The notes under the pieces: model-generated
The model's database searches: none
What the model was told of the DNA's origin: nothing
What the model saw: the letters and a program-made list of their open reading frames with translations, nothing else
Made by a program: the position numbers and the translations under genes
In this document: positions 1,145-29,166 of the stretch, piece by piece
Position numbering within the stretch: position 1 is the first letter of the stretch
How the letters are laid out: each line of letters starts with the position of its first letter
Assembly: GCA_007376535.1 (NCBI GenBank)
Contig: VMGK01000004.1
Span: 1 to 40,766, forward strand
DNA length: 40,766 nucleotides
Direction: 5' to 3'
Origin: Candidatus Berkelbacteria bacterium Licking1014_7
Lineage (GTDB): Bacteria; Patescibacteriota; UBA1384; GWA2-35-9; CG2-30-39-44

Positions 1145-2023
1145 ATGAATAAAATCACCAAAATCGTTATTCCGGTTGCGGGTATTGGCATGAGGTTTTT
1201 GCCTTGGACTAAGACCATGCCCAAAGAAATGTTGCCGATTATAAATCGCCCCTTGCTTGACTATATTGTGGATCAGGCAATTGACTCAGGCATTGAAACG
1301 ATTATTTTTGTCTCGTCAACCGCCAAAAAACCGCTTGACGATTATTTTGACCGCAATTTGGACTTAGAAGCCCAACTGAGCCAAAAGGGCAAATTAAAAG
1401 AATTGGAAGAAATTAAAAAAATTTCTCAAAAAGCGAATTTTGTTTTTGTGCGGCAAGGCGAGCAGTTGGGTAATGGACACGCTTTGCTTCAAGCCAAACC
1501 CATCACTGCCAATGAGCCGTTTGTTTTTTGTTGGGGTGACGAATTAATTTTGTCCCAACCACCGATTTTCAAACAACTCATTGATGCTTATCAAAAATAT
1601 CCGGGCAATTATTTGGCGCTCTTAAAATCCATACCTGGAAATCATAATATTTGGTGTGAAAAATACGGCAATGCCGCAGGAAAAGAATTAGAGCCGGGCA
1701 TTATTCAGGTCTCAAAAGTGATTGAAAAGCCGGGTAGAGGCAATTCTATCTCTGACTTATTTTCCGTCGGCGGATTTATCGCTGAACCAGAATATATTGA
1801 GGCGCTCTCCCAATCCGCGCCCGGCAAAGGAGGCGAGATTTGGTGGAATAGCGCGTTTGATAAATTTATTGAAAAAGGCAAGGTTTTTGGCAAAATCATT
1901 GACGGCGAGTATCTGGATTTGGGCACGCCAGCCGGATTTGTCAAGGCAAATCTTTATTTTGCCTTAAAAAATCCCGAAATCTTCGAGGAAATTAAAGAAT
2001 ACATTAACTTAAATAAGAATTAA
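1145..2023 (+). CDS. galU: UTP-glucose-1-phosphate uridylyltransferase
   Basis: The 292-residue protein makes UDP-glucose from UTP and glucose-1-phosphate, a cytoplasmic precursor for glycans and sugar interconversion. The N-terminal nucleotide-binding signature is at residues 8-30 (IPVAGIGMRFLPWTK followed by MPKEMLP); the usual GLGTRF is GIGMRF here, a mild variation. Later landmarks are GQLGNGHA-like EQLGNGHALLQAKP, the FCWGDELI metal/UDP strand, a VIEKPG loop and the EYLDLGTPAGFVKAN C-terminal motif typical of the GalU/NTP_transferase family. Length matches bacterial GalU (about 290-300). The start codon follows the small membrane peptide directly, with AAGGA overlapping its stop. Confidence 0.95.
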   Translation: MNKITKIVIPVAGIGMRFLPWTKTMPKEMLPIINRPLLDYIVDQAIDSGIETIIFVSSTAKKPLDDYFDRNLDLEAQLSQKGKLKELEEIKKISQKANFVFVRQGEQLGNGHALLQAKPITANEPFVFCWGDELILSQPPIFKQLIDAYQKYPGNYLALLKSIPGNHNIWCEKYGNAAGKELEPGIIQVSKVIEKPGRGNSISDLFSVGGFIAEPEYIEALSQSAPGKGGEIWWNSAFDKFIEKGKVFGKIIDGEYLDLGTPAGFVKANLYFALKNPEIFEEIKEYINLNKN

Positions 2024-2293: not shown

Positions 2294-3721
2294 ATGCAAA
2301 TGAACAAAACAATTCTTTATGTGTTAATTGGTTTTGGGGTGGTGGTGTTTAGCGTGGTAATCGCGCTGATAATCTATGCCAGCAAAAATCAACCGACCAA
2401 AACAGATGATAAAAGCCAACTGCCAGATGATCAAAGAACTGTGCTAAATGTCTGGCGTCCGATTGACGACCAAGAAACATTTCAGACCATTATTGATCAA
2501 TACGAAAAAGAACATCCTGAAATCAAGATTAATTATGTAAAAAGCGATTTGGCTAATTACGAATTTGATTCAATCAGCGCCCAACTGGGAGAAAATGGTC
2601 CGGATGTTTGGTCTATTCCCAGTGCTTGGCTTATCCGTCACAAAGAAAAACTTGCCCCAATGCCCGCTGGATTTTTAGCCCAAAAAAAGGAGCAAGCCCA
2701 AGACCCGGATATCAACACCAAACAAATCCGCGATTCGTATGTGCCAGTCGTTGAAAAAGAAGTAATTTTTGACAATCTGGTCTACGGATTGCCGCTTTTT
2801 GTTGACACCTTGGCATTGGTGGCTAATCAGGATATTTTTAACGAAGTTGACAGCCAGACAGCCAGAGATAATCAATATGCCAAAGAGATCCTCAAATATG
2901 GTCCTAAAAATTGGAATGAATTTATTGACCTTATTAAACTTTTAACTAAGAAAAACGGCAATCAAATTGAGCGCGCCGCCGCCGCCTTGGGCGCGTCTTC
3001 AAACATTGAAAACAGCGCGGATATTTTGGCGCTTTTGATGATGCAAAACAACACTCAACTTCAAAGTTCTGACAAGAAACAGGCAACTTTTAATCTTGAT
3101 CAAGAAAAGACCTCGGGCGAAAATTTTAATCCCGGCAAAAATGCGGTTGAATTTTATACTAATTTTGCCAACCCCGCCAGCCAGTATTATACCTGGAATG
3201 AATCAATGCCTGATGATTTTGACGCTTTTTCTAATGGAAAAGTCGCGATGATTTTTTCTTACGCTTCGCAACTTAAAAAAATTTCCGAAAAAAATCCCAA
3301 TCTTAAATTTGTCGCCGTAGCCATGCCGCAGATTAAAAATCAGTCCAAAGCGATTGATATGCCTTCTTACTGGGTTGAGACCGTGCCTGCCACTTCCAAA
3401 AAACAAGTCGAGGCCTGGAATTTTATTCTTTACACCGTCTCAAATGGTTTGGGAAATTATCTCAACGCGGCTGATCGCCCCAATCCGACGCCCATAAAAA
3501 GTGTGCCAGAAATTTCCGAGCGGGTAAAAAAGAATAATCCTTGGCAATTTCAGCAACAGACGGCTGAGAGTTGGTATCGCGGCAACGATCCGCAAAAAGT
3601 TGAACTGGCTTACCAAGGTATTATCAAAGATGTTTTGTCGGGCGGGTCAGTCCAAAACGCGCTCGACACCGCTGCTTCAAAGGTCTCAGAAATTTTCAAA
3701 ACCCTTGATACAACACCCTAA
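2294..3721 (+). CDS. Membrane-anchored extracellular solute-binding protein (family 1)
   Basis: The 475-residue protein resembles sugar-type ABC transporter binding proteins (SBP_bac_1). One N-terminal hydrophobic segment (about residues 6-28) lacks a lipobox or obvious cleavage site and should anchor it on the outside of the membrane; a Lys/Asp-rich linker follows. The body shows family landmarks: LNVWRPIDDQ at the start, YEKEHPEIKINYV, a GPDVWSIPSAW cleft segment, YGLPLFVDTLALVANQD, and FSNGKVAMIFSYASQ near residue 320. Residue 3 is a second possible Met start. No permease or ATPase gene accompanies it; the downstream neighbours are seven pilin genes. It may therefore bind a ligand for a non-transport role, or work with a transporter encoded elsewhere. 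Confidence 0.85.
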   Translation: MQMNKTILYVLIGFGVVVFSVVIALIIYASKNQPTKTDDKSQLPDDQRTVLNVWRPIDDQETFQTIIDQYEKEHPEIKINYVKSDLANYEFDSISAQLGENGPDVWSIPSAWLIRHKEKLAPMPAGFLAQKKEQAQDPDINTKQIRDSYVPVVEKEVIFDNLVYGLPLFVDTLALVANQDIFNEVDSQTARDNQYAKEILKYGPKNWNEFIDLIKLLTKKNGNQIERAAAALGASSNIENSADILALLMMQNNTQLQSSDKKQATFNLDQEKTSGENFNPGKNAVEFYTNFANPASQYYTWNESMPDDFDAFSNGKVAMIFSYASQLKKISEKNPNLKFVAVAMPQIKNQSKAIDMPSYWVETVPATSKKQVEAWNFILYTVSNGLGNYLNAADRPNPTPIKSVPEISERVKKNNPWQFQQQTAESWYRGNDPQKVELAYQGIIKDVLSGGSVQNALDTAASKVSEIFKTLDTTP

Positions 3722-3726
3722 AAATT

Positions 3727-3748
3727 GTTAAAAGCGCGTAGGTCGTGA
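3727..3748 (+). repeat. Solo right end of family 1 element
   Basis: Twenty-two bases from GTTAAAAGCGCGTA through GGTCGTGA match the right end of the 231-489 element (469-490) at all but one position. No left end lies nearby, so this appears to be a remnant. It sits just after the solute-binding protein gene and 30 bases before the first pilin gene. Confidence 0.6.
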
Positions 3749-3777
3749 AATTACTAATAACCAATAACTAAAATAAT

Positions 3778-4062
3778 ATGTTCGGATTAGACCAAGTTTT
3801 TGGCGACTCTGCCCAAGGCAACTTACAAGGCAAATTTTGGGCAATTTCTAATTATGTTTTAGAAATAATGTTTATCGTGGCTGGCATTGTGGCGGTCGCA
3901 AGCATTGTCTGGTCGGGCTACACTTTTATCACCTCTTTTGGCGACGAAGAAAAAGCCGGCAAAGCCAAAAAAATTTTAATTTATTCAATTATTGGTTTGG
4001 TGGTGGTGATTTTGGCTGAAACCGCTATTCAGTTGATAGCCACTAAATTTACCCTTAAATAA
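3778..4062 (+). CDS. VirB2/T4SS-type pilin, paralogue 1
   Basis: The 94-residue protein has two hydrophobic helices (about residues 24-49 and 66-90) separated by a short charged hairpin, FGDEEKAGKAKK, which corresponds to the GAGNEEATGKAKK loop of the later paralogues. This two-helix layout is that of TrbC/VirB2 pilins and of the T4SS pilin family common in Patescibacteria. There is no cleavable signal peptide, unlike classical VirB2. The next pilin begins six bases after the stop, so the genes form an operon. A weak TAAAAT lies three bases before the ATG; no Shine-Dalgarno sequence is evident. Role in pilus assembly is inferred from the family. Confidence 0.8.
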   Translation: MFGLDQVFGDSAQGNLQGKFWAISNYVLEIMFIVAGIVAVASIVWSGYTFITSFGDEEKAGKAKKILIYSIIGLVVVILAETAIQLIATKFTLK

Positions 4063-4067
4063 TTTTG

Positions 4068-4337
4068 ATGAATATTTTTCCCAACAAACCTGAGGATTTG
4101 AAACTGTTGGATTCGGTTACAATTTTTATAACGATTGCCAACTATATTTTGGCTGCTTCGGGCATCATCGCCATAATTGTGATTGTGGTGTCTGGCATAA
4201 AAATTATGCTTTCAGCCGGGTCAGACGATCAAGTGGCGTCTGCCAAAAATTCTATCAAATGGGCAATTTTAGGGCTGATCGTGATAATTCTTGCCACCAC
4301 GATTGTCAACTGGGCAATTTTTGTAATTAAAAAATGA
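4068..4337 (+). CDS. VirB2/T4SS-type pilin, paralogue 2
   Basis: An 89-residue two-helix pilin-like protein. The helices (about residues 14-43 and 62-86) flank the loop SAGSDDQVASAKNS, a diverged form of the family loop. The ATG at 4068 is preferred over the TTG directly before it. It follows paralogue 1 by five bases and precedes paralogue 3 by ten, consistent with one transcript. The conserved hydrophobic pattern and position, not individual catalytic residues, support the assignment. Confidence 0.78.
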   Translation: MNIFPNKPEDLKLLDSVTIFITIANYILAASGIIAIIVIVVSGIKIMLSAGSDDQVASAKNSIKWAILGLIVIILATTIVNWAIFVIKK

Positions 4338-4347
4338 TCAAAATTTT

Positions 4348-4920
4348 ATGACAACAGAAAAAATTTGGAATTTATTTGGAAATAAGGTTACTAAGCCAGA
4401 TGTAAGCGGCGTTGACCCGAGCGCTGATCCGAACGCGTTTTTAACTAATAATGCCTACCACTGGCTGGTTTTGTTTATTGACGCGGTTTATTATTTGTTT
4501 TTAATCGCGATTTTAATATCTGCCGTTATCTATCTAACCGCTGGCGCCAGCGACGAGAAGACCGCCCAAGCCAAAAAAGGAATTTTATACTCGGTAATTG
4601 GCTTTGTGGTAACTGCGTCCGCCTTGGCAATCGTTTCGCTTGTAGTTGCCAAAACCGGTGAATTGTCCAATGTCCTGGCCGGCAATGATGTGTTTATTAA
4701 TTTAACTGCTATTGTTTTTCAAACCGTCAGTTCACTTTCCGGCGCGATTTTTATGGTAATGTTGCTTTTGGGCGGATTTAAGTATTTGACCGGCGCGGGC
4801 AATGAAGAGCAAACCGCGGGCGCCAAAAAACAAATGATAAACGCCACCATTGGTTTAGCGCTTACTTTGTCTGCCTTTGCCATCGGCGCAGCGATTATCA
4901 ATTTAATATTTGGGCAATGA
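4348..4920 (+). CDS. Tandem two-domain VirB2/T4SS-type pilin, paralogue 3
   Basis: This 190-residue protein contains the pilin unit twice. The first copy covers about residues 35-105, with the loop TAGASDEKTAQAKKG; the second covers about 120-190, with KYLTGAGNEEQTAGAKK. Each copy has the usual two hydrophobic helices, giving four membrane segments. The two halves are not identical, so this is an old internal duplication or fusion rather than a recent copy. A Thr/Lys/Asp-rich N-terminus of about 35 residues precedes the first helix. The ATG of paralogue 4 overlaps the TGA stop (ATGA at 4917-4920), so translation is coupled. A fused dimer could act as an initiator, adaptor or base subunit; this is inference. 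Confidence 0.8.
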   Translation: MTTEKIWNLFGNKVTKPDVSGVDPSADPNAFLTNNAYHWLVLFIDAVYYLFLIAILISAVIYLTAGASDEKTAQAKKGILYSVIGFVVTASALAIVSLVVAKTGELSNVLAGNDVFINLTAIVFQTVSSLSGAIFMVMLLLGGFKYLTGAGNEEQTAGAKKQMINATIGLALTLSAFAIGAAIINLIFGQ

Positions 4921-5750
4921 AAATTAAAAATTGTAAATTAAAAATTGTGTTCGTTTTATGTTCGGTTTTATTTCTGTTGTTTGGCGTGATGATAAATCAA
5001 ACAAAAGTTTTTGCCGAACCCACCATTCAAGAGCGATTAAAATTAAAAGATCTGGGAGATGAAATTAATAAAAATGGCAAATCACAGCTTGATTGGGGTG
5101 TAACAGATTTCAACCAAGCCGGTATTGAAAAAACCGTTGGGCAGGTCTTGATTAAAAAAATTTTCAATATCGCGATTTCTGTTTCCGGCGTCATTTTTAT
5201 GATAATTCTTTTGGTTGGCGGAATTCAATATTTAACTGGCGCGGGCAACGAAGAAGCGACTGGAAAGGCGAAAAAAATGATGATTGACGCGGCAATTGGT
5301 TTATTAATTGTGCTTAGCGTCTGGGCAATCGGCACTTGGGTTATCAATGCCCTTGCTGGTAATTCCACTGGCTCGTCAGACGACGGCGTTGCTAAAGTAG
5401 ACTGTCCGTCTAATATCATAAGTTTTTCCGTGTCAGCGCAAAGGGTAGGAACCCAAAACTTTGCAGCGGTTTCAGACAACACCAGCCCTAATATTATAAT
5501 TAAATTAACCAATGTTGGCGACCCGACCGAAACAAATTATAAACATCGTGTTTATATAGGCGGAACAGAAATGATCCCCCAGGATATGCACCAACGACCG
5601 TTAACTGAAACAATTCTTTACACCTTTGATGCCCGGGATGGAGCCATATCTTACACTGCCAAGGTTTATAAATTAAATACCGGCAATTCAATCAACCCGC
5701 TTTGCGAAGGGGGTATACGCAACAGTAATGAAGTCCCGGTCAAACCATAA
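4917..5750 (+). CDS. VirB2/T4SS-type pilin with C-terminal extracellular domain, paralogue 4
   Basis: A 277-residue protein. It has an N-terminal signal-like helix (about residues 8-32, ending VFAEP), a linker, then the pilin unit (about 75-145) with the exact signature YLTGAGNEEATGKAKKMMID. After the second helix comes a Ser/Gly-rich linker and a roughly 120-residue domain, beginning near a Cys (VDCPSN) and containing a second Cys near the end (NPLCEGG). The alternating polar/hydrophobic strands suggest a beta-sandwich, but no family was recognised. The two Cys could form a disulfide outside the membrane, and a DsbA-like protein is encoded at 32021. The 4-base overlap with paralogue 3 marks a coupled operon. 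Confidence 0.8.
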   Translation: MKIKNCKLKIVFVLCSVLFLLFGVMINQTKVFAEPTIQERLKLKDLGDEINKNGKSQLDWGVTDFNQAGIEKTVGQVLIKKIFNIAISVSGVIFMIILLVGGIQYLTGAGNEEATGKAKKMMIDAAIGLLIVLSVWAIGTWVINALAGNSTGSSDDGVAKVDCPSNIISFSVSAQRVGTQNFAAVSDNTSPNIIIKLTNVGDPTETNYKHRVYIGGTEMIPQDMHQRPLTETILYTFDARDGAISYTAKVYKLNTGNSINPLCEGGIRNSNEVPVKP

Positions 5751-5764
5751 TTTCAGCCAGGCGC

Positions 5765-5795
5765 TTGACAACCATACTATCTTGTTTGTTATAAT
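5765..5795 (+). promoter_or_regulatory. Promoter for pilin paralogues 5-7
   Basis: TTGACA at 5765-5770 and TATAAT at 5790-5795 are both perfect consensus hexamers, separated by 19 bases, slightly long. Predicted start is near 5802, giving a leader of about 110 bases before the pilin ATG at 5914. It splits the pilin array into two transcription units. Confidence 0.75.
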
Positions 5796-5810
5796 GAAAA
5801 TACGTTAACA

Positions 5811-5860
5811 TCACGAACAATCGCGAACAATAGCTCAAACTCGCGAACAGTCGGGACGAA
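5811..5860 (+). repeat. 10-bp tandem repeat array in a pilin leader
   Basis: Five consecutive 10-base units: TCACGAACAA, TCGCGAACAA, TAGCTCAAAC, TCGCGAACAG and TCGGGACGAA. Units 1, 2 and 4 are near-identical; 3 and 5 are degenerate. The array lies in the 5' leader between the promoter at 5765-5795 and the start codon. One unit per helical turn would suit phased protein binding to DNA; binding to the RNA leader is equally possible. Confidence 0.65.
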
Positions 5861-5913
5861 GCAATCTAATTCCAAAAATCAGAAAAAATAAAAAAAATAA
5901 AAGAGGAGGTTTT

Positions 5914-6213
5914 ATGAAACTCTCAGCCATCACTGGCACAGGCAACACTTTATTGCCCACCAAGCCAGATCAGGTGCAATACACCGAGGTTAGCCAAATC
6001 GTGAATGTGGTATTTAATACCGTTATCATTGCCGCTGGCGCGATCTTTGTGATTCTGCTTTTAGTTGGCGGCATCCAGTACCTTTCTGGCGCAGGCAATG
6101 AAGAAGCGACTGGCAAGTCCAAAAAACTAATGATTGACGCTGTGGTCGGTCTAATCATTGTTTTAGCGGCTTGGGCAATCGGCACTTGGGTCAAAGGTCA
6201 ATTTGGGTTATAA
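5914..6213 (+). CDS. VirB2/T4SS-type pilin, paralogue 5
   Basis: The minimal form of the family, 99 residues, with two helices (about 28-56 and 73-92) and the loop YLSGAGNEEATGKSKKLMID. It lacks a cleaved signal peptide and any C-terminal domain. It has the best translation signal of the cluster, AGAGGAGG five bases before the ATG, and its own consensus promoter. This makes it the likely major, highly expressed subunit; abundance is inferred from signals only. Its central segment is close to paralogues 6 and 7 even at the nucleotide level. Confidence 0.85.
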   Translation: MKLSAITGTGNTLLPTKPDQVQYTEVSQIVNVVFNTVIIAAGAIFVILLLVGGIQYLSGAGNEEATGKSKKLMIDAVVGLIIVLAAWAIGTWVKGQFGL

Positions 6214-6290
6214 AAGGTATTAGACCCCAGAGCAATCTCTGGACTCCAAAATAACTCGCTTTGCTAGGCAATAAAAAATTTACAAAAAAA

Positions 6291-6692
6291 ATGAAAAAAG
6301 TGTTTTACTATTTTGTAGGAATTTTCGGAATTTTAGCCGGATTTAGCGCTCGGGCTTTGGCAGCAGTGACTGATTTGGTATGTCCTGGTGGTTGGGGTGG
6401 TATTATATTTGGAAGAGGAGCATGTAATCCGCCAGCTGGCGCGGAAATACCAACTCAATTTTATTCAATTGAAAGTATTATCAGTTTAATTTTTTCTACC
6501 ATCATCACTGCCGCTGGCGCGATCTTTATGATAATGCTGATTGTGGGCGGTATCCAGTACCTTACTGGCGCGGGCAATGAAGAAACCACTGGCAAAGCCA
6601 AGAAATTGATGATTGACGCAGTGATTGGTTTGCTCATAACTTTATCTGCTTGGGCAATCGGCGCTTGGGTGTTAAATCAATTTGTGCAATAA
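6291..6692 (+). CDS. VirB2/T4SS-type pilin with signal peptide, paralogue 6
   Basis: A 133-residue protein from the ATG at 6291 (an in-frame TTG at 6261 would add ten basic residues, but has no better ribosome site). It has a typical signal peptide ending ARALAA near residue 25. The segment after this carries two Cys residues (LVCPGG and GACNPP) that could form a disulfide outside the membrane. The two-helix pilin unit follows, with YLTGAGNEETTGKAKKLMID and a C-terminus WVLNQFVQ shared with paralogue 7. It follows paralogue 5 by 77 bases. Confidence 0.82.
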   Translation: MKKVFYYFVGIFGILAGFSARALAAVTDLVCPGGWGGIIFGRGACNPPAGAEIPTQFYSIESIISLIFSTIITAAGAIFMIMLIVGGIQYLTGAGNEETTGKAKKLMIDAVIGLLITLSAWAIGAWVLNQFVQ

Positions 6693-6720
6693 ATCCGCTT
6701 AAAAATTTTAAAAACCGGCA

Positions 6721-7386
6721 TTGAAATATAAAAAACTATTATTTGGACTGATTTTTTTGGGCATAATGGTTTTTGCCGTGGCGATTTTTAATGATCAAAA
6801 ATTAGCTTGGGCAGCGGTAACTGATTTAATACCAACAGCAGCACCAGAGGGTGTGACTACTTCGTTTTCAAGCGTGAAAGAGATTATTTCTACTCTGTTT
6901 CGCGTCATCATCTCTGCCGCTGGCGCGATATTTATGATAATTCTGATTATCGGCGGCATAATGTACCTTACTGGCGCGGGTAACGAAGAAGCCACTGGCA
7001 AAGCCAAAAAGATGATGATTGACGCAATTATTGGTTTGGCAATAACCTTGTCTGCTTGGGCAATCGGCGTCTGGGTGTTAAATCAGTTTGTCGGAAACAC
7101 GCCTGCCGCTGTTCCGCCCACAACAACACCAACATCTACACCTGCGCCTGCGCCCGGCAGCGGGGGCGGGGGATCTACCACTGGATCAACTAGACTAGAA
7201 ATTACGGGATATCCAATTACTTTCTCCGTACCAAAAACAGATCCCAATAACAACACTTACAACATAACTGTAAACTCTCGATCAAATGATTGTCAGCAAA
7301 AAGGAGGAAAGGACATTTATATAGAACAAATTTCCCAAACACAGTACCCCAATTATGATCAATACCGATTTCATTGTTATAAATAG
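6721..7386 (+). CDS. VirB2/T4SS-type pilin with Pro/Thr linker and C-terminal domain, paralogue 7
   Basis: A 221-residue protein starting at a TTG. The signal peptide ends near KLAWAA (about residue 31). The pilin unit (about 50-125) has YLTGAGNEEATGKAKKMMID and ends WVLNQFVG, like paralogue 6. Then comes a Pro/Thr/Ala linker (PTTTPTSTPAPAPG) and a Gly/Ser stretch, leading to a domain of about 70 residues with two Cys (NDCQQK and RFHCYK). Such a linker and terminal domain fit surface display, for example as a tip or adhesive subunit. No Shine-Dalgarno sequence was found, so the TTG start is the weakest point. Confidence 0.78.
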   Translation: MKYKKLLFGLIFLGIMVFAVAIFNDQKLAWAAVTDLIPTAAPEGVTTSFSSVKEIISTLFRVIISAAGAIFMIILIIGGIMYLTGAGNEEATGKAKKMMIDAIIGLAITLSAWAIGVWVLNQFVGNTPAAVPPTTTPTSTPAPAPGSGGGGSTTGSTRLEITGYPITFSVPKTDPNNNTYNITVNSRSNDCQQKGGKDIYIEQISQTQYPNYDQYRFHCYK

Positions 7387-7447: not shown

Positions 7448-9058
7448 TTAGCGTTCCGGATAGGCGCGCAGCCCGTCCGGAACTGAAACACTTGAAGGCA
7501 GAGTATAGTATGCCAGCCACTTCTGGCGGCTGGCGTCCCACCCTACCCGAGTGATAGTTACGACCGCCACGAGGCGGTCGTTTGTGTCTTGGATGCGCCA
7601 CCGCGCGCCTTGCGCGGTGGTCACATCTTGATCCAGCGCCAACCAGTACTCTCTGGTGGGCTGGCGCGAATCGTTTCGCGCCTGCTGCTGACGCTCGGCA
7701 AGTCGAGCGGTGGCGACAGGGTCAACTGGATCCTGACGGGCGATCCAGTCAAGGGTTTTTTGGATAGCGCGAGATACTGACTCGCGCTGAACTGCCTGCC
7801 AGTCAAAGCGGCTTTCGCCGCTGTAACCCCAGCCCGGCAGACGCGGAAGATTCACGTAGAAGCGTCGTTCCGTGGACTTGGCTTCGCCGCGAATACTTGC
7901 TCCGCCCTTTTGGTACTCACCGGTTTCAATCCGGGTGGGCGAGACAACGATCTCGCAAAAGGCGGTGTAGGTTCGCGAACCCCACCCCACTCTTTCGCGA
8001 TAATTTCCAAATCCCGCGCCCTTGGCTCGCTCGCTGTCCCAAGCCGAGAAAGCGAGGAACCAAATTTCGGACGGAGGGGTCATTTTGCCAGCCGCAGGCG
8101 TCTGCGGCTGGGTGGTGTCATAACGCCCGGAGCGCTGGACTTGGTCCTGCGCATGGGTGGTTCTCTGGAAATTCTCCCCCCAGACAACGAACTTGATGTC
8201 CGTATAGTTCGCCCCGAGGGAGGAAACGATTTGGTCTAGATTTTCTGGCGCCCAAGTGGAGGTAATCTCCAGCGCCACCACTCGCGGGGTTTTGCCCCGC
8301 AGAACATCTTGAGGTGCGCCCAGCGATTCGGTCGCGATCAGCTCGGTCGCGATCTGCTGTTTTACTCGTCCGACACGCTCGGATGTGGCAGGGTGGGAAG
8401 CAAAATACTTGGATAGCCCCTTCAGTTTGCCACCGCCCAGCATTTCCAACGCGCCAATGGCGTCTTGCGGGTTGTAGCCCGCCTTTACCATTAAGCGCAC
8501 GCCCGATGTGTCGGCGTCACGCTCCTGATCGCGGCTATAACCGGATTGCAGGAGTTGAAATGCGATGCCGGCTCCGAGTTGAATCGTATCCGAACTGCCT
8601 TTAAGTAACAGTCCGGCAGCCACGGAAGTAATCAAGGCATTGTTAATCGCCTTTCTTCCGTGGGACAACTCAGTATGCGCCACCTCGTGTCCAACGATGA
8701 AGGCGATCTTGCCGTCGGTCTCGCACATATCAAGCAGTTTTTTGGTGATGTAGGTTGGTCCGCCTGGACAGGCGAATGCGTTGATCATCTCATCGTTGTT
8801 GATGATTTTGAACTCGTAGGGGATGTTCTGCCTCTGTCGGAACTGCAGGATTTGCTTGGCGACGCGGTCTAATCGCGCCTGACTTCCGAAATCGTTCAGC
8901 ACGCCGCCGTACTCTCTCTCGGCGTTCAGTGCCACCTGCTTGCCGATCTGGATTTCATCCTTCTCGCTGACAAGCATCAGACCGCCAGCGAAAACTGACT
9001 GCACCCCCAACCCCAACACGAAGAACATGACAACTAACAGCGACTTTGACTGTCTCAT
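7448..9058 (-). CDS. Secreted M48-family zinc metalloprotease with unique C-terminal domain
   Basis: The 536-residue protein has a signal peptide (residues 1-24, ending SVFAGG). The M48 peptidase domain covers about residues 30-240. HEVAH at 124-128 supplies two zinc ligands and the catalytic Glu, and E179 in QERDADTSG is the third ligand. The layout resembles BepA/LoiP periplasmic proteases. The C-terminal 300 residues are unrecognised, Trp-rich and without TPR-like repeats. The gene has an AAGGAGG site 7-8 bases before the ATG, its own promoter and terminator, and no operon partner. Its base composition is much richer in G/C than all neighbours, with G/C-ending codons, a strong sign of horizontal acquisition. 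Substrates could be secreted or pilus proteins; this is inference from location only. Confidence 0.88.
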   Translation of the reverse strand: MRQSKSLLVVMFFVLGLGVQSVFAGGLMLVSEKDEIQIGKQVALNAEREYGGVLNDFGSQARLDRVAKQILQFRQRQNIPYEFKIINNDEMINAFACPGGPTYITKKLLDMCETDGKIAFIVGHEVAHTELSHGRKAINNALITSVAAGLLLKGSSDTIQLGAGIAFQLLQSGYSRDQERDADTSGVRLMVKAGYNPQDAIGALEMLGGGKLKGLSKYFASHPATSERVGRVKQQIATELIATESLGAPQDVLRGKTPRVVALEITSTWAPENLDQIVSSLGANYTDIKFVVWGENFQRTTHAQDQVQRSGRYDTTQPQTPAAGKMTPPSEIWFLAFSAWDSERAKGAGFGNYRERVGWGSRTYTAFCEIVVSPTRIETGEYQKGGASIRGEAKSTERRFYVNLPRLPGWGYSGESRFDWQAVQRESVSRAIQKTLDWIARQDPVDPVATARLAERQQQARNDSRQPTREYWLALDQDVTTAQGARWRIQDTNDRLVAVVTITRVGWDASRQKWLAYYTLPSSVSVPDGLRAYPER

Positions 9059-9332: not shown

Positions 9333-10850
9333 TTATTCGCGGGTAACTCTTTCCACTTCCTCGCGGGTGGTGAGACCGAGTTTCGCTTTTTCCAAGCCAT
9401 CGTCTGACATTGTTTTCATACCTAATGCTTTTGCCTTTTGTTCAAACTCTTCCACCGATGCTTTGCGCATTATGAGTTCATTAAATTCTGAGGTTGGTTT
9501 TAGGGCTTCGGCAATAATCAACCTGCCGAGAAATCCGCTTTTTTGGCACTCATCGCAACCTTTGCCTTTGCAAGCGCTACATAATTTTCTGACTAATCGT
9601 TGGGCTAAAATTAAATTAATTGAACCAGCCAAAAGATACGGCTCAATGCCCATATCCAAGAGACGAGGTATGGCGCCTGAGGCAGTATTGGTGTGAAGTG
9701 TGGACAAAACCAAATGTCCAGTCATACCTGCCTGAAGAGCGATTTTCGCGGTTTCGGGATCGCGGATTTCTCCGACCATTATCACATCCGGATCTTGTCG
9801 CACTGCCGAAGCGAGCGCGTTGGCAAAAGTGTAGCCCGCGATTTTATCAACTTGCGTTTGATTTATGCCAGTAATCTGATACTCAATCGGATCTTCAATA
9901 GTAATAATTTTAATCTCCGGCTTATTAATTTCATTCAAAATCGCGTAAAGCGTGGTGGTTTTTCCTGAACCAGTCGGACCAGTGTTTAATATCAAGCCGT
10001 GCGGTTTGGAAATCGCTTCTTTTGTCAAAGCGGAAACTTCTTTATTCAGCCCTAATTGACTCAAAGTCAAAAGCGGATTATCAGAAAGCAAAAGCCGCAT
10101 CACGATAATTTCTCCGCCTGAGCCCGGCATTGAAGAGACGCGCAAATCCACACGGTGGTCGCTGGCAATATAATCAAATCTGCCGTCTTGGGGTTTAGCG
10201 GCAATATCAAGTTTGAGCCCGGCCAAATTTTTAATCCGTGAGTTAAGCGCCTTGTATTGTTCCAGAGTCAAACGGGCCACATCTTGCAAGACACCATCTA
10301 TCCGAAAACGTAGACGACAATCTGTTTCAGTTGGCTCTAAATGAATATCAGAAGCGCGCGTAATCACCGCGCCGTTTAGCGTCAAGTCCAAAAGTTCGGT
10401 GGTGGAGACCTTTTTAATATGTAGAGCGATGTCGCGAATATTGCGAATAATTTTGACAAATTCCGCCCCGCGCTTTTTCTCCTGAATTTTTTTCTGGGTG
10501 GTGGCCAGTTCTACTAACCTGTCATATTGGGATAGAGCAAACTTAAAACCAGTTTGCGAACAAATAGAAAAGTTAAATTCAAAATTGGGAAAATATTTGA
10601 TAAGTAAATTTTTCTGCTGGACGGTTGGCGCGCCCACAGACGCAACTTTCACGATTTTTCCCACCCTTAAATACGCGATAAATTGATGTTTTTCAATCTC
10701 GGTTTTAGGCAAGACCAAAATCGCGTCTGGGGCAAACGGATAATTCACTAAATCCACATACGACAAACGCAATGATTGCGCCAACTCTTGCGTTTTCTGC
10801 TCTTCTTGCTCGTGGTGAATTGACCAAATTTGAGTTGAAATATCGGGCAT
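9333..10850 (-). CDS. pilB: GspE/PilB-family secretion and pilus assembly ATPase
   Basis: The 505-residue cytoplasmic hexameric ATPase powers type IV pilus or type II secretion assembly. An N-terminal MshEN-like region (about residues 15-110) precedes the ATPase core. Seen motifs: ASDIHLEP (start of the N2 domain), GPTGSGKTTT Walker A near residue 290, the Asp box ITIEDPIEYQ, GEIRDPETA Walker B, a His box in LSTLHTNTA, and the zinc-binding tetracysteine CSACKGKGCDEC near the C-terminus. A GGAGGAGGG site lies 4-5 bases before the ATG, next to a hairpin. Other type IV pilus genes (pilC, pilT, pilin of the type IV kind, prepilin peptidase) are not in the window. It is probably part of the CPR type IV pilus; a link to the VirB2-like pilins is unproven. 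Confidence 0.94.
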   Translation of the reverse strand: MPDISTQIWSIHHEQEEQKTQELAQSLRLSYVDLVNYPFAPDAILVLPKTEIEKHQFIAYLRVGKIVKVASVGAPTVQQKNLLIKYFPNFEFNFSICSQTGFKFALSQYDRLVELATTQKKIQEKKRGAEFVKIIRNIRDIALHIKKVSTTELLDLTLNGAVITRASDIHLEPTETDCRLRFRIDGVLQDVARLTLEQYKALNSRIKNLAGLKLDIAAKPQDGRFDYIASDHRVDLRVSSMPGSGGEIIVMRLLLSDNPLLTLSQLGLNKEVSALTKEAISKPHGLILNTGPTGSGKTTTLYAILNEINKPEIKIITIEDPIEYQITGINQTQVDKIAGYTFANALASAVRQDPDVIMVGEIRDPETAKIALQAGMTGHLVLSTLHTNTASGAIPRLLDMGIEPYLLAGSINLILAQRLVRKLCSACKGKGCDECQKSGFLGRLIIAEALKPTSEFNELIMRKASVEEFEQKAKALGMKTMSDDGLEKAKLGLTTREEVERVTRE

Positions 10851-24507: not shown

Positions 24508-26142
24508 ATGTCAAGGAGCGGGGATTTTAATCAGGGGTTGGCGCTAAAAGCAGTCAAATTTATTTGCGCTTTTTTGATTTTTAGCGTGGTCTGGGGAGTG
24601 GGGGGAGGAAATTTCAATAGAAGAGTTGTAGCCTATTCAGTTGATAATGATATTAGTTTCAATGATAGTACAGGCGGGAATTTTAAGTATGCTTCAAATA
24701 AAAGCATTATTGAGCATTATATACAGTCAGCTAACAATAAAGGTGTTTATATTATTCAATATCAAAAAACCAGTAGCCCGCTAAATGGAATTTACAATAT
24801 TAATTTTGGTAGTTCCAGATTGATAGGAGGTTCTGTTGAATTGTATAAACTTTCAAGAATGAAAAAAGCAACAGACACTCAATGGGGAATTTTTAATATT
24901 GACGAGCAATATCATTTGTTGGTTTTAACATCAATTATAAATAATATTCATTCTGGGTTAAAGCCAGATAGTGCCATTCCGTTAGCGGCAGGGCTAACCG
25001 ATGTAAAACAAGCCAGAACCATCAATCTAAACGAATTGTCAAGTAATGATGTGTTGGGCGTTGCTACGAGTAATTATTTTGGTCTGATTAAGGCAAAAGG
25101 AGGAGCGCAGGGAACTTTAGGAAATTATATTAAAGCCACCTCTGATTTTATAACAAACAGTATCAGGGGGCAAAAATTTGCGTCGTTAAGCATAGTAGAT
25201 AATACAAGCCCAATATTATCTATAGCTGATGCTGTCAATCAGTGTAAAAATGTATTTGTTAATAAAAGCATTAGCGATAATAATATTTTGCCAGATGAGA
25301 TAAAAGAAAGATATAAAACTTCGCCGTTAAAAGACATATTTAATAAAGTGTCATTAGACGATTTTAGGGATTTTGATAAAGAAGTATATAAAATATTTTA
25401 TAGTTCAAAAGGTGGAGAAAGTAATCAGCACTTTTTATTGAATAGTGTTGGATATAATACTCTTGCAAAATATAGTGAGAAATTTTCGATAGAAGCGTCG
25501 CAGATTTTTGGTCTTCAAGCAGATGCTGATTTAAAGAATACAAAAAACTCGTGGGCGTATTTGTTGGAATTAGCTAGAAAATATAGTGGTATCTATCAGG
25601 GAATATCGCAGCAATTTAATAAAGATAATAAGATATTGCTTCATAAAATGGTATTGGCAGAATATTATATACAAAAACATTTAGAATATCATAGGTGTAT
25701 TTATCAAGAAATGGAAAAGTCGGGAAATGGATTGCCAGAAAGTCATGAATATTCAAAAGAACAATATAATAAAGAGGTGCAGGCATTTAATTCGTTATCA
25801 AATATTACTATTGATATGGATATTGGCACGCAGAGTGATATTGAAAAAGGTTTGAGCGGTTCCTCCAAATGCGGGATTAACTTTGGAGCGGGGTTTGGCT
25901 GGGGGTGGCTGGCAAAGGCGGCTGAAAACAGCATTTGTTGGACTTTAAGGATGATGGTGAATATCAGTTTGATTTTCTTTAATCGGGCGGCAAATTTTGT
26001 CTTTGACGCGATGATTGTTAATCAGCCGAGTACTTCGGACAATGCTGGTGACGTCAAATCATCTAGCGAAGAGGACAGCGACATCGAGCCAGCTGGCGGA
26101 GAAGGTGTAGAAACCGAGCCAGCAACCATTCCGGGTCCGTAA
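24508..26142 (+). CDS. Secreted or membrane protein of unknown function, VirB6-like cassette
   Basis: A 544-residue protein not recognised from sequence. An N-terminal hydrophobic segment (about residues 14-34) resembles a signal peptide or anchor. Residues 40-450 look soluble and mixed helix/strand, with many Asn, Ser and Lys and few Cys. A hydrophobic stretch near 450-500 (GAGFGWGWLAKAAENSICWT, then MMVNISLIFFNRAANFVFDA) would cross the membrane once or twice. The C-terminal 45 residues are acidic and Pro/Gly-rich. Lower G/C and more AT-ending codons than its neighbours. The VirB6-like gene follows after 33 bases, with the same orientation, so it is probably an extracytoplasmic component of the same apparatus. 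Confidence 0.75.
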   Translation: MSRSGDFNQGLALKAVKFICAFLIFSVVWGVGGGNFNRRVVAYSVDNDISFNDSTGGNFKYASNKSIIEHYIQSANNKGVYIIQYQKTSSPLNGIYNINFGSSRLIGGSVELYKLSRMKKATDTQWGIFNIDEQYHLLVLTSIINNIHSGLKPDSAIPLAAGLTDVKQARTINLNELSSNDVLGVATSNYFGLIKAKGGAQGTLGNYIKATSDFITNSIRGQKFASLSIVDNTSPILSIADAVNQCKNVFVNKSISDNNILPDEIKERYKTSPLKDIFNKVSLDDFRDFDKEVYKIFYSSKGGESNQHFLLNSVGYNTLAKYSEKFSIEASQIFGLQADADLKNTKNSWAYLLELARKYSGIYQGISQQFNKDNKILLHKMVLAEYYIQKHLEYHRCIYQEMEKSGNGLPESHEYSKEQYNKEVQAFNSLSNITIDMDIGTQSDIEKGLSGSSKCGINFGAGFGWGWLAKAAENSICWTLRMMVNISLIFFNRAANFVFDAMIVNQPSTSDNAGDVKSSSEEDSDIEPAGGEGVETEPATIPGP

Positions 26143-26175
26143 GTAATCGCCGGCAACAATTACGAGGAGGGTTTA

Positions 26176-28845
26176 GTGAAAAACAGGCAAAAAACTATTC
26201 GTTGGCTGAAAATTTTAACAGGATTTTTGCTGCTGTTTTTTCTGGTTTTTTTGTCAGTCAAAACCGCCAGCGCGGCGACTATGTTGAATATTAATCAACA
26301 ACTTGAGAAAGGCAGCGCTTTGGTAGATATTTGGAGAGTAATTCTCGTGCTTTCTAATGTTGCGGTTTTGATAATTTTAATCGCAGTCGGGTTTGGCACG
26401 ATTTTTCATATTCAGATTGACACCTACGGCATAAAAAAAGCGATTATGCCATTGATTATCGGGATTATTCTGGCGAATTTCAGTTTGATAATTTGTCGGA
26501 CATTTTTAGACATTTCTAATGTGGTGACAGTCGGGATATTGAATCAGACCTTAAAAATGAAACAAGGCGATATGGCGCAAAAACAAACCGATAATTTTAG
26601 AAAACTGGGGGTAATGTTGGGCGAAGTGGTTATGCCCGGGGTAACAAGTTTTGATGATGATTATAAGCAGGTTGATGAAACTAAGGTTGATGAAGAAACT
26701 GGCGAAACCACTAGCGACCCGACTAAAGGAACATCGCCTATCTGGAAAATAGTAGCCGCCTTAGGGATTATTTATGTTGCCTCTGGATCAATCATAATTT
26801 TGGGCATAATCCTCTTTTTTATTATGGCGCTTATTCCGTCAATCATTATGTTTTTGCTGGGATTTCTTTTTTACGCTCGGGTGATAATGCTGTTTATTTT
26901 AATCGTCATTTCTCCGCTGGCGTTTTTGTGCATATCATGGTCCCCGGCGCAGGGGCTTTTCAAAAAATGGTGGGATCAATTTATTAAGTGGGCTTTTATG
27001 GTGCCAGTGGCATTTTTCTTTTTCTGGATGGCGATTTTAGTGCATAATGCTTTTGACGGCGAATTCACTTTATGGGGTTATATTACCGGTATTATTATGA
27101 TGGTTTTGGCAGCAACCGCGCCGTTTAAGATGGGCGGCGCGATCGGCGGAATGATTAACGGCGTAGCCAAAAAATACGGCGGGCAGGCGCTTGGCTGGGG
27201 CAAAGGCGCGGCGTGGACCGGAATAAATCGGGGGATGGAGAAAAGGGGTTTGCAGTCATTTCGGACGATGAAAGCCGGGTTTCAGCAGGGTCAGAAAAAA
27301 TTAGACGAAGAACTAATGGTGCCTAAATCAGCCCGCAGTCAAGCGTGGTCAGAAAGATATTGGACACGGGCAAGCGCCAGAATAAATCCAGTGGGGTTTA
27401 ACATGGGAAAAGAGGGAATAAATAAATTTTATTGGAAGGGTATGAAGAGTCTTGGGCCGCGACGAGGTTTTTCAATGACTGGAGAAGCAATGCGCGGCGG
27501 CAGGATTGGAGAATTAGTTAAAGAAGGCGCTAATATTGGGGGAGTTTTTACTACGCCAGCGCAGATTAAAAAAGCATTTAGCGGAGATATTGGCAGGGAC
27601 GATGCAGTCAGGGCATTGGCAGATTATTATTCTCGAGGAGGCAGTGCTGATGCTTTAGCGACAGGGGGGGTAGATGTGCCGGGTAAATTAAAACAATTGG
27701 GCTATGATGATAGTGAAATAACTAACATACAGAATCGGTTAGATAAAGCGTCAGGTTCTATTACTGGTATTACTACCAATCAGGAAGCAGATGAATTTCT
27801 TCGTCGTCGGGGCGGAGTGGGAGGAATGTTGTCTAACGACAGGGATAATCAGTCAGCCCTGATAAATGCTAAAACACAAAAAGAAAAGTTAGATAAAATG
27901 ATTAAGTTATTAACTGAAATCGCTGGCGGTAGTCACTTAGATGGAATGGATGCTGAAAAACAGGAATCAATTAAAACAATGGCAGTAGGAGAAGCAGGAT
28001 ATTTAGAGGCAGCAAAAAAAGACGAAAGAGAACAAGTTCTAAAATCAGGGGCGCTGGGCGAATTGTTGCGCGCTGGACGACTTTCAGGAGACAATGCGGC
28101 TATAGCCAGGGAAACTGGTCTTTCGCAGGGACATCAGGCAATTTTTGAAAGAATTAATCCCGCCAATATTGAAGCAGTGGAAGAGGACGCTGCTGACAGC
28201 GGGCATCTCATTATTAAACAATTAGGGGAATTATTTAGTCATAGAACTTCGGGCGATGGCGGACAAAGCAATCTTAAAGCTGCTTTAGACACCCTTAGAA
28301 CGTCACCAGGAAACGACATTCAAATTAATGTTACACCTCACGATAATCCTTTTGGAATAAAGGACATTCCAGAATTAAAAGATTCTCCAAAATTTGCTCA
28401 AGCAATGTCTGCCTTATTGTCTAATGACGGAGGCGCGATAGCTGAATTAAAGGGCGCTTTGGTGGGAATTCCAAGCGAAGAAGCAAGGGGCGAAATAATC
28501 AGCCGGATGGACATTTACTTGAAAGGCGATTTGAGGAAAAATTTTGCCAGTAATTTATCTGAATTACGAGGTATTGCTGATCCAAGTGTAAGGGCTGCGA
28601 TCGAAAGTGGAATTTCAGGCAGATTATTTAACAAACAAGGAGATTTTAAAAAGTTGGCAACAAATGATGCAAAATTGCAAACAGAAATAAAACAACTTTT
28701 ATCTCAAAGCGGAATTAGTGGGTTAGATGAGGAGTCGCTAAAAAGGATTGTGGGGGGATTGCGAAAAAGAATAACTAGTTATAATTTTGCAGAGGGTGGG
28801 TTGACTAGTATAAGGGCAGTTGGGGAAACCGCATCCTCAATTTAG
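26176..28845 (+). CDS. VirB6/TrbL-like polytopic membrane protein with large soluble tail
   Basis: The 889-residue protein starts at a GTG with GAGGAGG six bases upstream. A signal-like helix (about residues 12-34, ending ASAATM) is followed by membrane helices at about 52-75, 90-112, then after an acidic soluble loop, 195-260, 275-300 and 305-325, including FMALIPSIIMFLLGFLFYAR-like core segments and the loop SWSPAQGLFKKWWDQFIKW. This order, an extracytoplasmic N-terminus and a conserved Trp-rich cytoplasmic loop, is that of VirB6/TrbL channel proteins of type IV secretion. The C-terminal 500 residues are soluble and rich in Gly, Asp and Lys, without recognised domains. In CPR genomes such proteins usually sit near VirB4; none is seen here. 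Confidence 0.75.
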   Translation: MKNRQKTIRWLKILTGFLLLFFLVFLSVKTASAATMLNINQQLEKGSALVDIWRVILVLSNVAVLIILIAVGFGTIFHIQIDTYGIKKAIMPLIIGIILANFSLIICRTFLDISNVVTVGILNQTLKMKQGDMAQKQTDNFRKLGVMLGEVVMPGVTSFDDDYKQVDETKVDEETGETTSDPTKGTSPIWKIVAALGIIYVASGSIIILGIILFFIMALIPSIIMFLLGFLFYARVIMLFILIVISPLAFLCISWSPAQGLFKKWWDQFIKWAFMVPVAFFFFWMAILVHNAFDGEFTLWGYITGIIMMVLAATAPFKMGGAIGGMINGVAKKYGGQALGWGKGAAWTGINRGMEKRGLQSFRTMKAGFQQGQKKLDEELMVPKSARSQAWSERYWTRASARINPVGFNMGKEGINKFYWKGMKSLGPRRGFSMTGEAMRGGRIGELVKEGANIGGVFTTPAQIKKAFSGDIGRDDAVRALADYYSRGGSADALATGGVDVPGKLKQLGYDDSEITNIQNRLDKASGSITGITTNQEADEFLRRRGGVGGMLSNDRDNQSALINAKTQKEKLDKMIKLLTEIAGGSHLDGMDAEKQESIKTMAVGEAGYLEAAKKDEREQVLKSGALGELLRAGRLSGDNAAIARETGLSQGHQAIFERINPANIEAVEEDAADSGHLIIKQLGELFSHRTSGDGGQSNLKAALDTLRTSPGNDIQINVTPHDNPFGIKDIPELKDSPKFAQAMSALLSNDGGAIAELKGALVGIPSEEARGEIISRMDIYLKGDLRKNFASNLSELRGIADPSVRAAIESGISGRLFNKQGDFKKLATNDAKLQTEIKQLLSQSGISGLDEESLKRIVGGLRKRITSYNFAEGGLTSIRAVGETASSI

Positions 28846-28858
28846 TTGTAACGTATTT

Positions 28859-29164
28859 ATGAAAAAAGCAGATATTTCAAAATTAAAAAAATGGTTGAGG
28901 CAGATCAATAGTTTTAGAGACGAGTCAGAATTGAAGATCAATTTTAATTTAACTCAAGCAGAAATAAAAAAGCTTAAAGAACTGGGAATTGATAATTTTT
29001 TGCCTCTGGAAATTACAAGTAAACACAAGTTATGGTTATTGTTAGATAAACTTGAGCTGGCAATCTACTGGATGATTTATGATTTAACCAACGACATGTT
29101 CATTGATCGGGAGAAAAGCCGGGGAGATTTTGACTTGACAAACTCAGATAAAAAGAGTAAATAA
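28859..29164 (+). CDS. Small helical cytoplasmic protein of the VirB6-like cassette
   Basis: A 101-residue protein starting at the ATG at 28859; the longer frame overlaps the preceding gene. It has two or three amphipathic helices, one with SKLKKWLRQINSFRDES and another with HKLWLLLDKLELAIYWMIYD, and no membrane segment or signal. No family was recognised. It starts 14 bases after the VirB6-like stop and ends three bases before the next gene, so all are probably translated together. It may be a small adaptor or chaperone; this is inference from position. Confidence 0.6.
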   Translation: MKKADISKLKKWLRQINSFRDESELKINFNLTQAEIKKLKELGIDNFLPLEITSKHKLWLLLDKLELAIYWMIYDLTNDMFIDREKSRGDFDLTNSDKKSK

Positions 29165-29166
29165 GA

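Follow-up and report, generated by a model that had tools for sequence, protein, structure and literature searches.

How does a carbohydrate-type solute-binding protein (SBP), devoid of any permease partner nearby, come to stand at the head of a row of genes coding for pilins of a type IV secretion system (T4SS)? This question is raised by contig VMGK01000004.1 of Candidatus Berkelbacteria bacterium Licking1014_7, a member of Patescibacteriota, of which positions 1 to 40,766 were analysed (this whole stretch of 40,766 nucleotides is called the window below) and which comes from a genome of 0.8 Mb distributed over 41 contigs with a completeness of 94%. Calling of open reading frames (ORFs) in the window revealed a GalU-like gene, the SBP gene (475 aa) and then seven ORFs, all transcribed from the plus strand. 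The preliminary description of this DNA had called the SBP "fused by position" to the array; nothing is fused there, and the two are linked by position. We found that this position is operon-like and conserved throughout the phylum, so that membership of the SBP in the pilin operon is well supported, and we propose that this protein belongs to the patescibacterial T4SS pilus locus as an accessory component anchored in the membrane, acting as a surface sugar receptor or adhesin, a reading whose chances we judge to be evenly balanced.

Conservation of the gene order in Patescibacteria

Scanning of contigs from close relatives yielded one locus only, and conservation was therefore examined phylum-wide. 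Of 380 Patescibacteria genomes, 285 proved to contain the SBP when searched with a profile built of the window SBP and its distant relative from locus L011 (35% identity; five pilin ORFs follow). Around 100 SBPs, one region per genome, flanking DNA was taken to a maximum of about 9 kb in either direction, and pilins were located in it with a profile that was made from the pilin domains of the window and refined in two iterations; as these regions represent the better-scoring hits, the weakest relatives of the SBP are under-sampled. Together with the window and L011 this set comprises 103 SBPs, 4 of them at contig ends and 99 assessable. At 83 of the 99 assessable loci a pilin gene lies on the same strand within 1.5 kb downstream of the SBP, and 16 have none despite sufficient room. 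Since chance adjacency is expected for about 0.3% of loci, the neighbourhood is not a local accident. The 83 pilin-linked loci span 49 of 61 family-level groups and carry a median of five pilin ORFs per array (range 1–15). For the 85 loci in total that have a pilin downstream, the gap between the two genes has a median of 8 bp, with overlap in 22 cases and the same short overlap in 13, and pilins within 1.5 kb upstream accompany two SBPs only.

Pilins themselves are more widespread, those of family PF18895 being found in 372 of the 380 genomes. The assumption that the SBP occurs wherever pilins do was rejected, as whole lineages (f29, f79 and f53) possess no SBP, which is thus an accessory component. 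Re-testing of 80 SBP-negative genomes with a profile of 50 sequences gave a match in 4 only, three of them fragments. Nine SBPs that have no pilins beside them cluster in the SBP tree as a single supported group, whose members from families f38 and f76 keep a surface context, and we count this for the proposed reading: the gene upstream is a sortase or similar to one in f38 and f76, and in f38 an Ig-domain surface protein is encoded downstream. In three of these pilin-less loci (L114, L120 and L125) a sortase (PF04203 in L114) or sortase-like protein is encoded upstream of the SBP and a large surface protein downstream of it, the latter with an Ig domain in L114 and L120.

Absence of a cognate permease of family PF00528

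The statement of the preliminary description that no transporter genes accompany the array holds genome-wide for the type I permeases of ATP-binding cassette (ABC) transporters: a search confined to family PF00528 (BPD_transp_1) gave 0 matches in the window genome and was positive in 14 of 14 control genomes. One SBP_bac_1 gene is present in this genome, and no second. The same search, again restricted to PF00528, was negative in 63 of the 80 relatives tested, and the 19 matches in the other 17, mostly single copy, are separated from the SBP by over 30 kb or lie on a different contig, as judged from their coordinates. A permease of this family hidden elsewhere is thereby rejected for most genomes. 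Neither of the two observations named initially as arguments against the link of the SBP with pilins, a gene order that is not conserved in relatives and a constant neighbourhood with ABC permease genes, was borne out. This link, only supposed in the preliminary description, is therefore strong.

Connection with the secretion machine

The association extends to the components PrgI, TrsD and VirB4 in four loci, where the SBP gene sits within or beside a complete T4SS locus. In L042, one strand bears successively the SBP, VirB2, a second VirB2 with two domains, PrgI (PF12666 over cut-off), TrsD and VirB4 (P-loop_TraG, E 2e-29), where the TrsD label was given by gene order, from the position before VirB4, following PMC12102498. 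The order in L067, L110 and L113 is PrgI, TrsD, VirB4, one ORF, SBP and pilins; the intervening ORF codes for a PEGA-domain protein in L067 and L110, and a protein with Glucosaminidase and CHAP domains (VirB1-like kind) is situated among the pilins of L113. Seven further loci have VirB6 relatives, homologous to the product of window positions 26176–28845, at 3.5–7.4 kb downstream of the SBP. In the window this VirB6-like gene lies 22 kb downstream of the SBP and scores 25.2 bits for TrbL with a cut-off of 25.9, and VirB4 of the same genome was found at C33:47443 (P-loop_TraG, E 3.4e-31) with a TrsD-like gene upstream.

Fold, anchor and putative pocket of the solute-binding protein

In Pfam, the window SBP matches SBP_bac_1 (E 9e-22 over residues 60–378) and SBP_bac_8 (E 1e-18); the peptide-binding family SBP_bac_5, to which PrgZ of enterococcal plasmids belongs, is not among its significant Pfam families. 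The top PDB matches of the SBP profile are carbohydrate-binding SBPs, and hhalign with the maltose-binding protein (MBP) of E. coli, whose sequence was verified with PDB chain 1anf, aligned both lobes by sequence (97.8%, 337 columns). D171 of the SBP aligns with E111 of MBP and is D in 49 of 50 SBPs compared; W112 aligns with R66 (W in 46 of 50) and W427 with W340 (W in 40 of 50), the MBP positions being those that contact sugar. P103-D104 is invariant among the 50 sequences. Such conservation suggests that a ligand pocket may be kept. Strong invariants are also located outside the MBP contact positions, for example W54, Y299, W301 and W375. All scores of the SBP fall far below every curated NCBIfam equivalog cut-off. 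A lipobox-like motif is present in 68 of the 103 SBPs and an N-terminal hydrophobic helix in most of the other 35, indicating a membrane anchor, and inspection of the SBPs by eye disclosed no class III signal peptide motif. The AlphaFold model of the SBP, built from two sequences, had a predicted local distance difference test score (pLDDT) of 36 and was set aside as unusable.

Composition of the pilin array

The following features were assigned in the window.

1145–2023, plus strand: GalU-like nucleotidyltransferase of the UTP-glucose-1-phosphate uridylyltransferase type (NTP_transferase PF00483, E 1.9e-16)
2294–3721, plus strand: orphan carbohydrate-type SBP with N-terminal membrane anchor, without lipobox (SBP_bac_1, E 9.4e-22)
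3778–4062, plus strand: pilin 1, without signal peptide (PF18895, E 4e-13)
4065–4337, plus strand: pilin 2, without signal peptide, ATG at 4068 (PF18895, E 2.8e-13)
4348–4920, plus strand: pilin 3 (190 aa), two tandem pilin domains (PF18895 in two stretches, E 6.5e-19; NCBIfam NF045849 above cut-off)
4917–5750, plus strand: pilin 4, signal peptide and C-terminal tail of about 130 aa, start overlapping the pilin 3 stop (PF18895, E 2.3e-9)
5765–5795, plus strand: promoter-like site before pilin 5, TTGACA (5765–5770), 19 nt, extended −10 element TGTTATAAT (5787–5795), from sequence
5904–5909, plus strand: AGGAGG ribosome-binding site of pilin 5, from sequence
5914–6213, plus strand: pilin 5, minimal, without signal peptide, candidate major pilin (PF18895, E 1.9e-9)
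6261–6692, plus strand: pilin 6, signal peptide, likely start ATG 6291 (PF18895, E 2.2e-9)
6721–7386, plus strand: pilin 7, signal peptide, pilin domain, Pro/Thr linker and small beta tail (PF18895, E 5.9e-9)
24508–32010, plus strand: second T4SS-like cluster of the window, with the VirB6/TrbL-like protein at 26176–28845 (PF04610, 25.2 bits, cut-off 25.9)

All seven ORFs found behind the SBP exceed the Pfam cut-off for T4SS_pilin PF18895 (36–68 bits versus 26.6), in agreement with their initial assignment; the figure of seven is right for the genes, but the domains number eight because the third ORF holds two in tandem. These make up eight of the nine PF18895 domains in the genome. The ninth belongs to a 514-aa protein encoded near genes which we read as dnaA, dnaN and recF, and a secreted-looking protein of 1890 aa comes after it (both at L143, contig C12 of the same genome, 7720–14940). 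By sequence identity, domains 3b, 4, 5, 6 and 7 constitute a closer group (43–75%), and other pairs share 21–29%. The reported differences between paralogues were reproduced as well: signal-peptide-like N-termini belong to ORFs 4, 6 and 7 and are missing from 1, 2, 3 and 5, C-terminal tails are confined to ORFs 4 and 7, and pilin 5 is the only member of the array with AGGAGG directly before its start. Where TTG had been given as the start codon (ORFs 2, 6 and 7), the assignment is uncertain, with an ATG one codon in for ORF 2 (4068) and another at 6291 for ORF 6.

The promoter-like site occupies a gap of 163 bp upstream of pilin 5, and its spacer of 19 nt is longer than the 16–18 nt accepted in the promoter scan. 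The extended −10 word TGNTATAAT occurs in 9 copies in the window versus 1.5 expected, which suggests that this organism commonly uses extended −10 promoters. Three 9-mers resembling TCGCGAACA are found at 5811–5849, between the promoter-like site and the ribosome-binding site. Having a promoter-like region of its own and a strong ribosome-binding site, pilin 5 may be the most expressed subunit and is probably the main one in the filament, and tailed pilins 4 and 7 are probably minor or exposed. Of 73 arrays containing three or more pilins, 38 combine proteins that have a signal peptide with others that lack it, and 35 include a tailed pilin. The division of labour into major, minor and tip roles put forward in the preliminary description is in line with these figures but only suggestive.

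The AlphaFold model of pilin 7, based on 12 sequences, is a two-helix hairpin (helices 50–84 and 89–124, pLDDT of this block mostly 77–89) with a weakly predicted beta tail. Foldseek returned no significant match for this model, its top hit being the conjugation pilin 8dfu (E 2.7), and neither did the profile of 12 pilins find a significant match in PDB. The classical TrbC/VirB2 family PF04956 matched ORFs 1, 2 and 5 below cut-off (E 0.0025–0.025) and reached E ≤ 0.001 in 11 of 77 long pilins (best 1.1e-8). No common adhesin domain recurs in the pilin tails scanned. Three genomes have PF18895 domains inside open frames that exceed 3000 aa (G315:C3:1024194, G264:C10:51745 and G161:C12:276525), and in one SBP-linked array such a domain occurs in an ORF of 1239 aa (L052, 10841–14560).

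Neighbouring genes

Of 82 SBP loci linked to pilins, 46 have a GalU-like homologue as the immediate upstream neighbour of the SBP with the same orientation, which perhaps contributes to the supply of glycans or to glycosylation; in relatives an HSP20 gene is often found 5′ of it, as in the window. Convergently to the pilin array, a PilB/GspE-type ATPase (T2SSE) is encoded on the minus strand at 9333–10850, with no pilC or pilT visible beside it, and its homologues follow the array in 15 loci, 13 of them with the opposite strand orientation. The gene of M48 peptidase (7448–9058, minus strand) lies in a block of 54–61% GC between flanks of 36–46%, has no homologue in any other sampled SBP region and was possibly acquired.

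Proposed function and competing explanations

According to the reading we prefer, the SBP would be anchored outside the membrane by its N-terminal helix or by lipid, at the foot or perhaps along the shaft of the pilus, and would bind an oligosaccharide, which is probably a host or partner-cell glycan, whole or in fragments, serving the contact machine as receptor or adhesin rather than in uptake or as a scaffold, and the filament itself would be assembled of heterogeneous pilins. Several observations weigh against it. The ligand and the contact with the host are proposals suggested by sequence, and positions aligned with MBP may be conserved for reasons of fold. In roughly one genome out of four, T4SS pilins are present and no SBP could be detected, even with the 50-sequence profile, so that in those lineages the SBP is dispensable for the pilus. 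In the window genome VirB4 is on another contig (contig 33) and the VirB6-like gene is remote from the array, hence the T4SS is dispersed. Finally, synteny might partly reflect shared expression of surface genes.

That the same protein feeds the cell, catching sugars at the surface of the cell or host for transfer through a non-ABC channel, be it the T4SS translocon or another one, would be in keeping with the missing PF00528, with the conserved ligand-contact positions and with the physical linkage to PrgI and VirB4. We nevertheless consider such a siphon unlikely, as nothing else speaks for the conduit (no search for import by other carriers was made) and we know of no T4SS that imports small sugars. 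A bolder reading, in which the sugar-binding half of an ABC importer was rewired to a multi-pilin T4SS and forms in most Patescibacteria an organelle that reads, and possibly imports, host glycans without an ABC permease, seems improbable. Equally, the SBP fold could have been exapted for a structural task, in which it would assist pilin assembly or scaffold or plug the pilins, with vestigial ligand binding; the position of its gene directly before the pilins, often with overlap, and the invariant W54, Y299, W301 and W375 outside the contact positions fit this scenario. It looks doubtful in view of the conserved acidic and aromatic positions equivalent to those of MBP, of pilin arrays existing without the SBP and of the subclade which retains the SBP without adjacent pilins.

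The family relations of the SBP are with carbohydrate ABC importers, and one might therefore suppose an ordinary sugar importer whose permease is encoded elsewhere, with pilin adjacency resulting from incidental co-expression of surface genes. Zero PF00528 in the window genome, its presence in 17 of 80 relatives only, mostly as a single copy and never within 30 kb of the SBP, and pilin adjacency across 49 families contradict this for most genomes and make it very improbable overall. Just as improbable is a signalling receptor, with sugar sensing switching on T4SS expression as for PrgZ of pCF10 or ChvE of Agrobacterium: PrgZ is indeed a plasmid-encoded binding protein that goes with a monoderm T4SS and uses a chromosomal permease, but it requires the Opp permease of the host cell (PMC7117660), a class absent here as judged by PF00528, and among the families scanned no sensor kinase was found in the SBP neighbourhood.

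Comparison with known systems

Tandem divergent PF18895 pilins and relatives of VirB4, TrsD, PrgI and VirB6 unite the loci considered here with the published, MPF-FATA-like T4SS of Patescibacteria (PMC12102498; PMC10633639). Pilin arrays of 2–11 members in T4SS context are described in PMC12102498, so that multiple VirB2 paralogues, contrasted initially with the one VirB2 of classical conjugation systems, are not in themselves new for Patescibacteria. What differs from these accounts is the SBP as a regular first gene of the array; it is not mentioned in the searched text of PMC12102498, PMC10633639 and PMC12857230, and a full-text literature search for the SBP in connection with Patescibacteria T4SS or pilins gave nothing relevant within its incomplete coverage. 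Novelty of a regular permease-less sugar-binding component in a patescibacterial T4SS pilus locus is therefore probable rather than certain.

With SBPs of carbohydrate ABC importers (MBP, 4r9f MBP1, 4qrz, 3uor) the protein shares the alignment of both lobes and conserved residues at two MBP positions, E111 (acidic) and W340 (W), but differs from them by the lack of a permease partner, by the pilins that follow and by scores below the NCBIfam equivalog cut-offs. The bindosome of Sulfolobus (PMC4187195) likewise combines sugar-binding proteins with a pilus-type system, which is however type IV pilus-like, with class III signal peptides on its SBPs and with ABC transporters, whereas SBPs of the window type have T4SS-type pilins, lipoboxes or plain N-terminal helices, and no permeases. 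PrgZ/TraC of the enterococcal pheromone plasmids (PMC7117660) is similar as a binding protein without its own permease accompanying a monoderm T4SS; yet PrgZ is a peptide receptor feeding the chromosomal Opp permease, in contrast to a carbohydrate-type protein in a genome where no such permease class was found.

Biological meaning

The SBP bears on the way in which Patescibacteria recognise their hosts and feed on them. The cultivated Saccharibacterium Southlakia epibionticum cannot grow epibiotically without its T4SS and pilins (PMC10633639), which we count for the proposed reading, and the T4SS of one cultivated Patescibacteria member is described as the first one demonstrated to be essential for survival of its bearer (PMC12857230, review). 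Conserved as the leading gene of the pilin operon, the permease-less SBP suggests that this machine recognises glycans, and it offers a concrete, soluble and expressible protein for finding the ligand. If the receptor reading is true, the host-contact machine would carry a previously undescribed sugar receptor across a large group of tiny parasitic bacteria.

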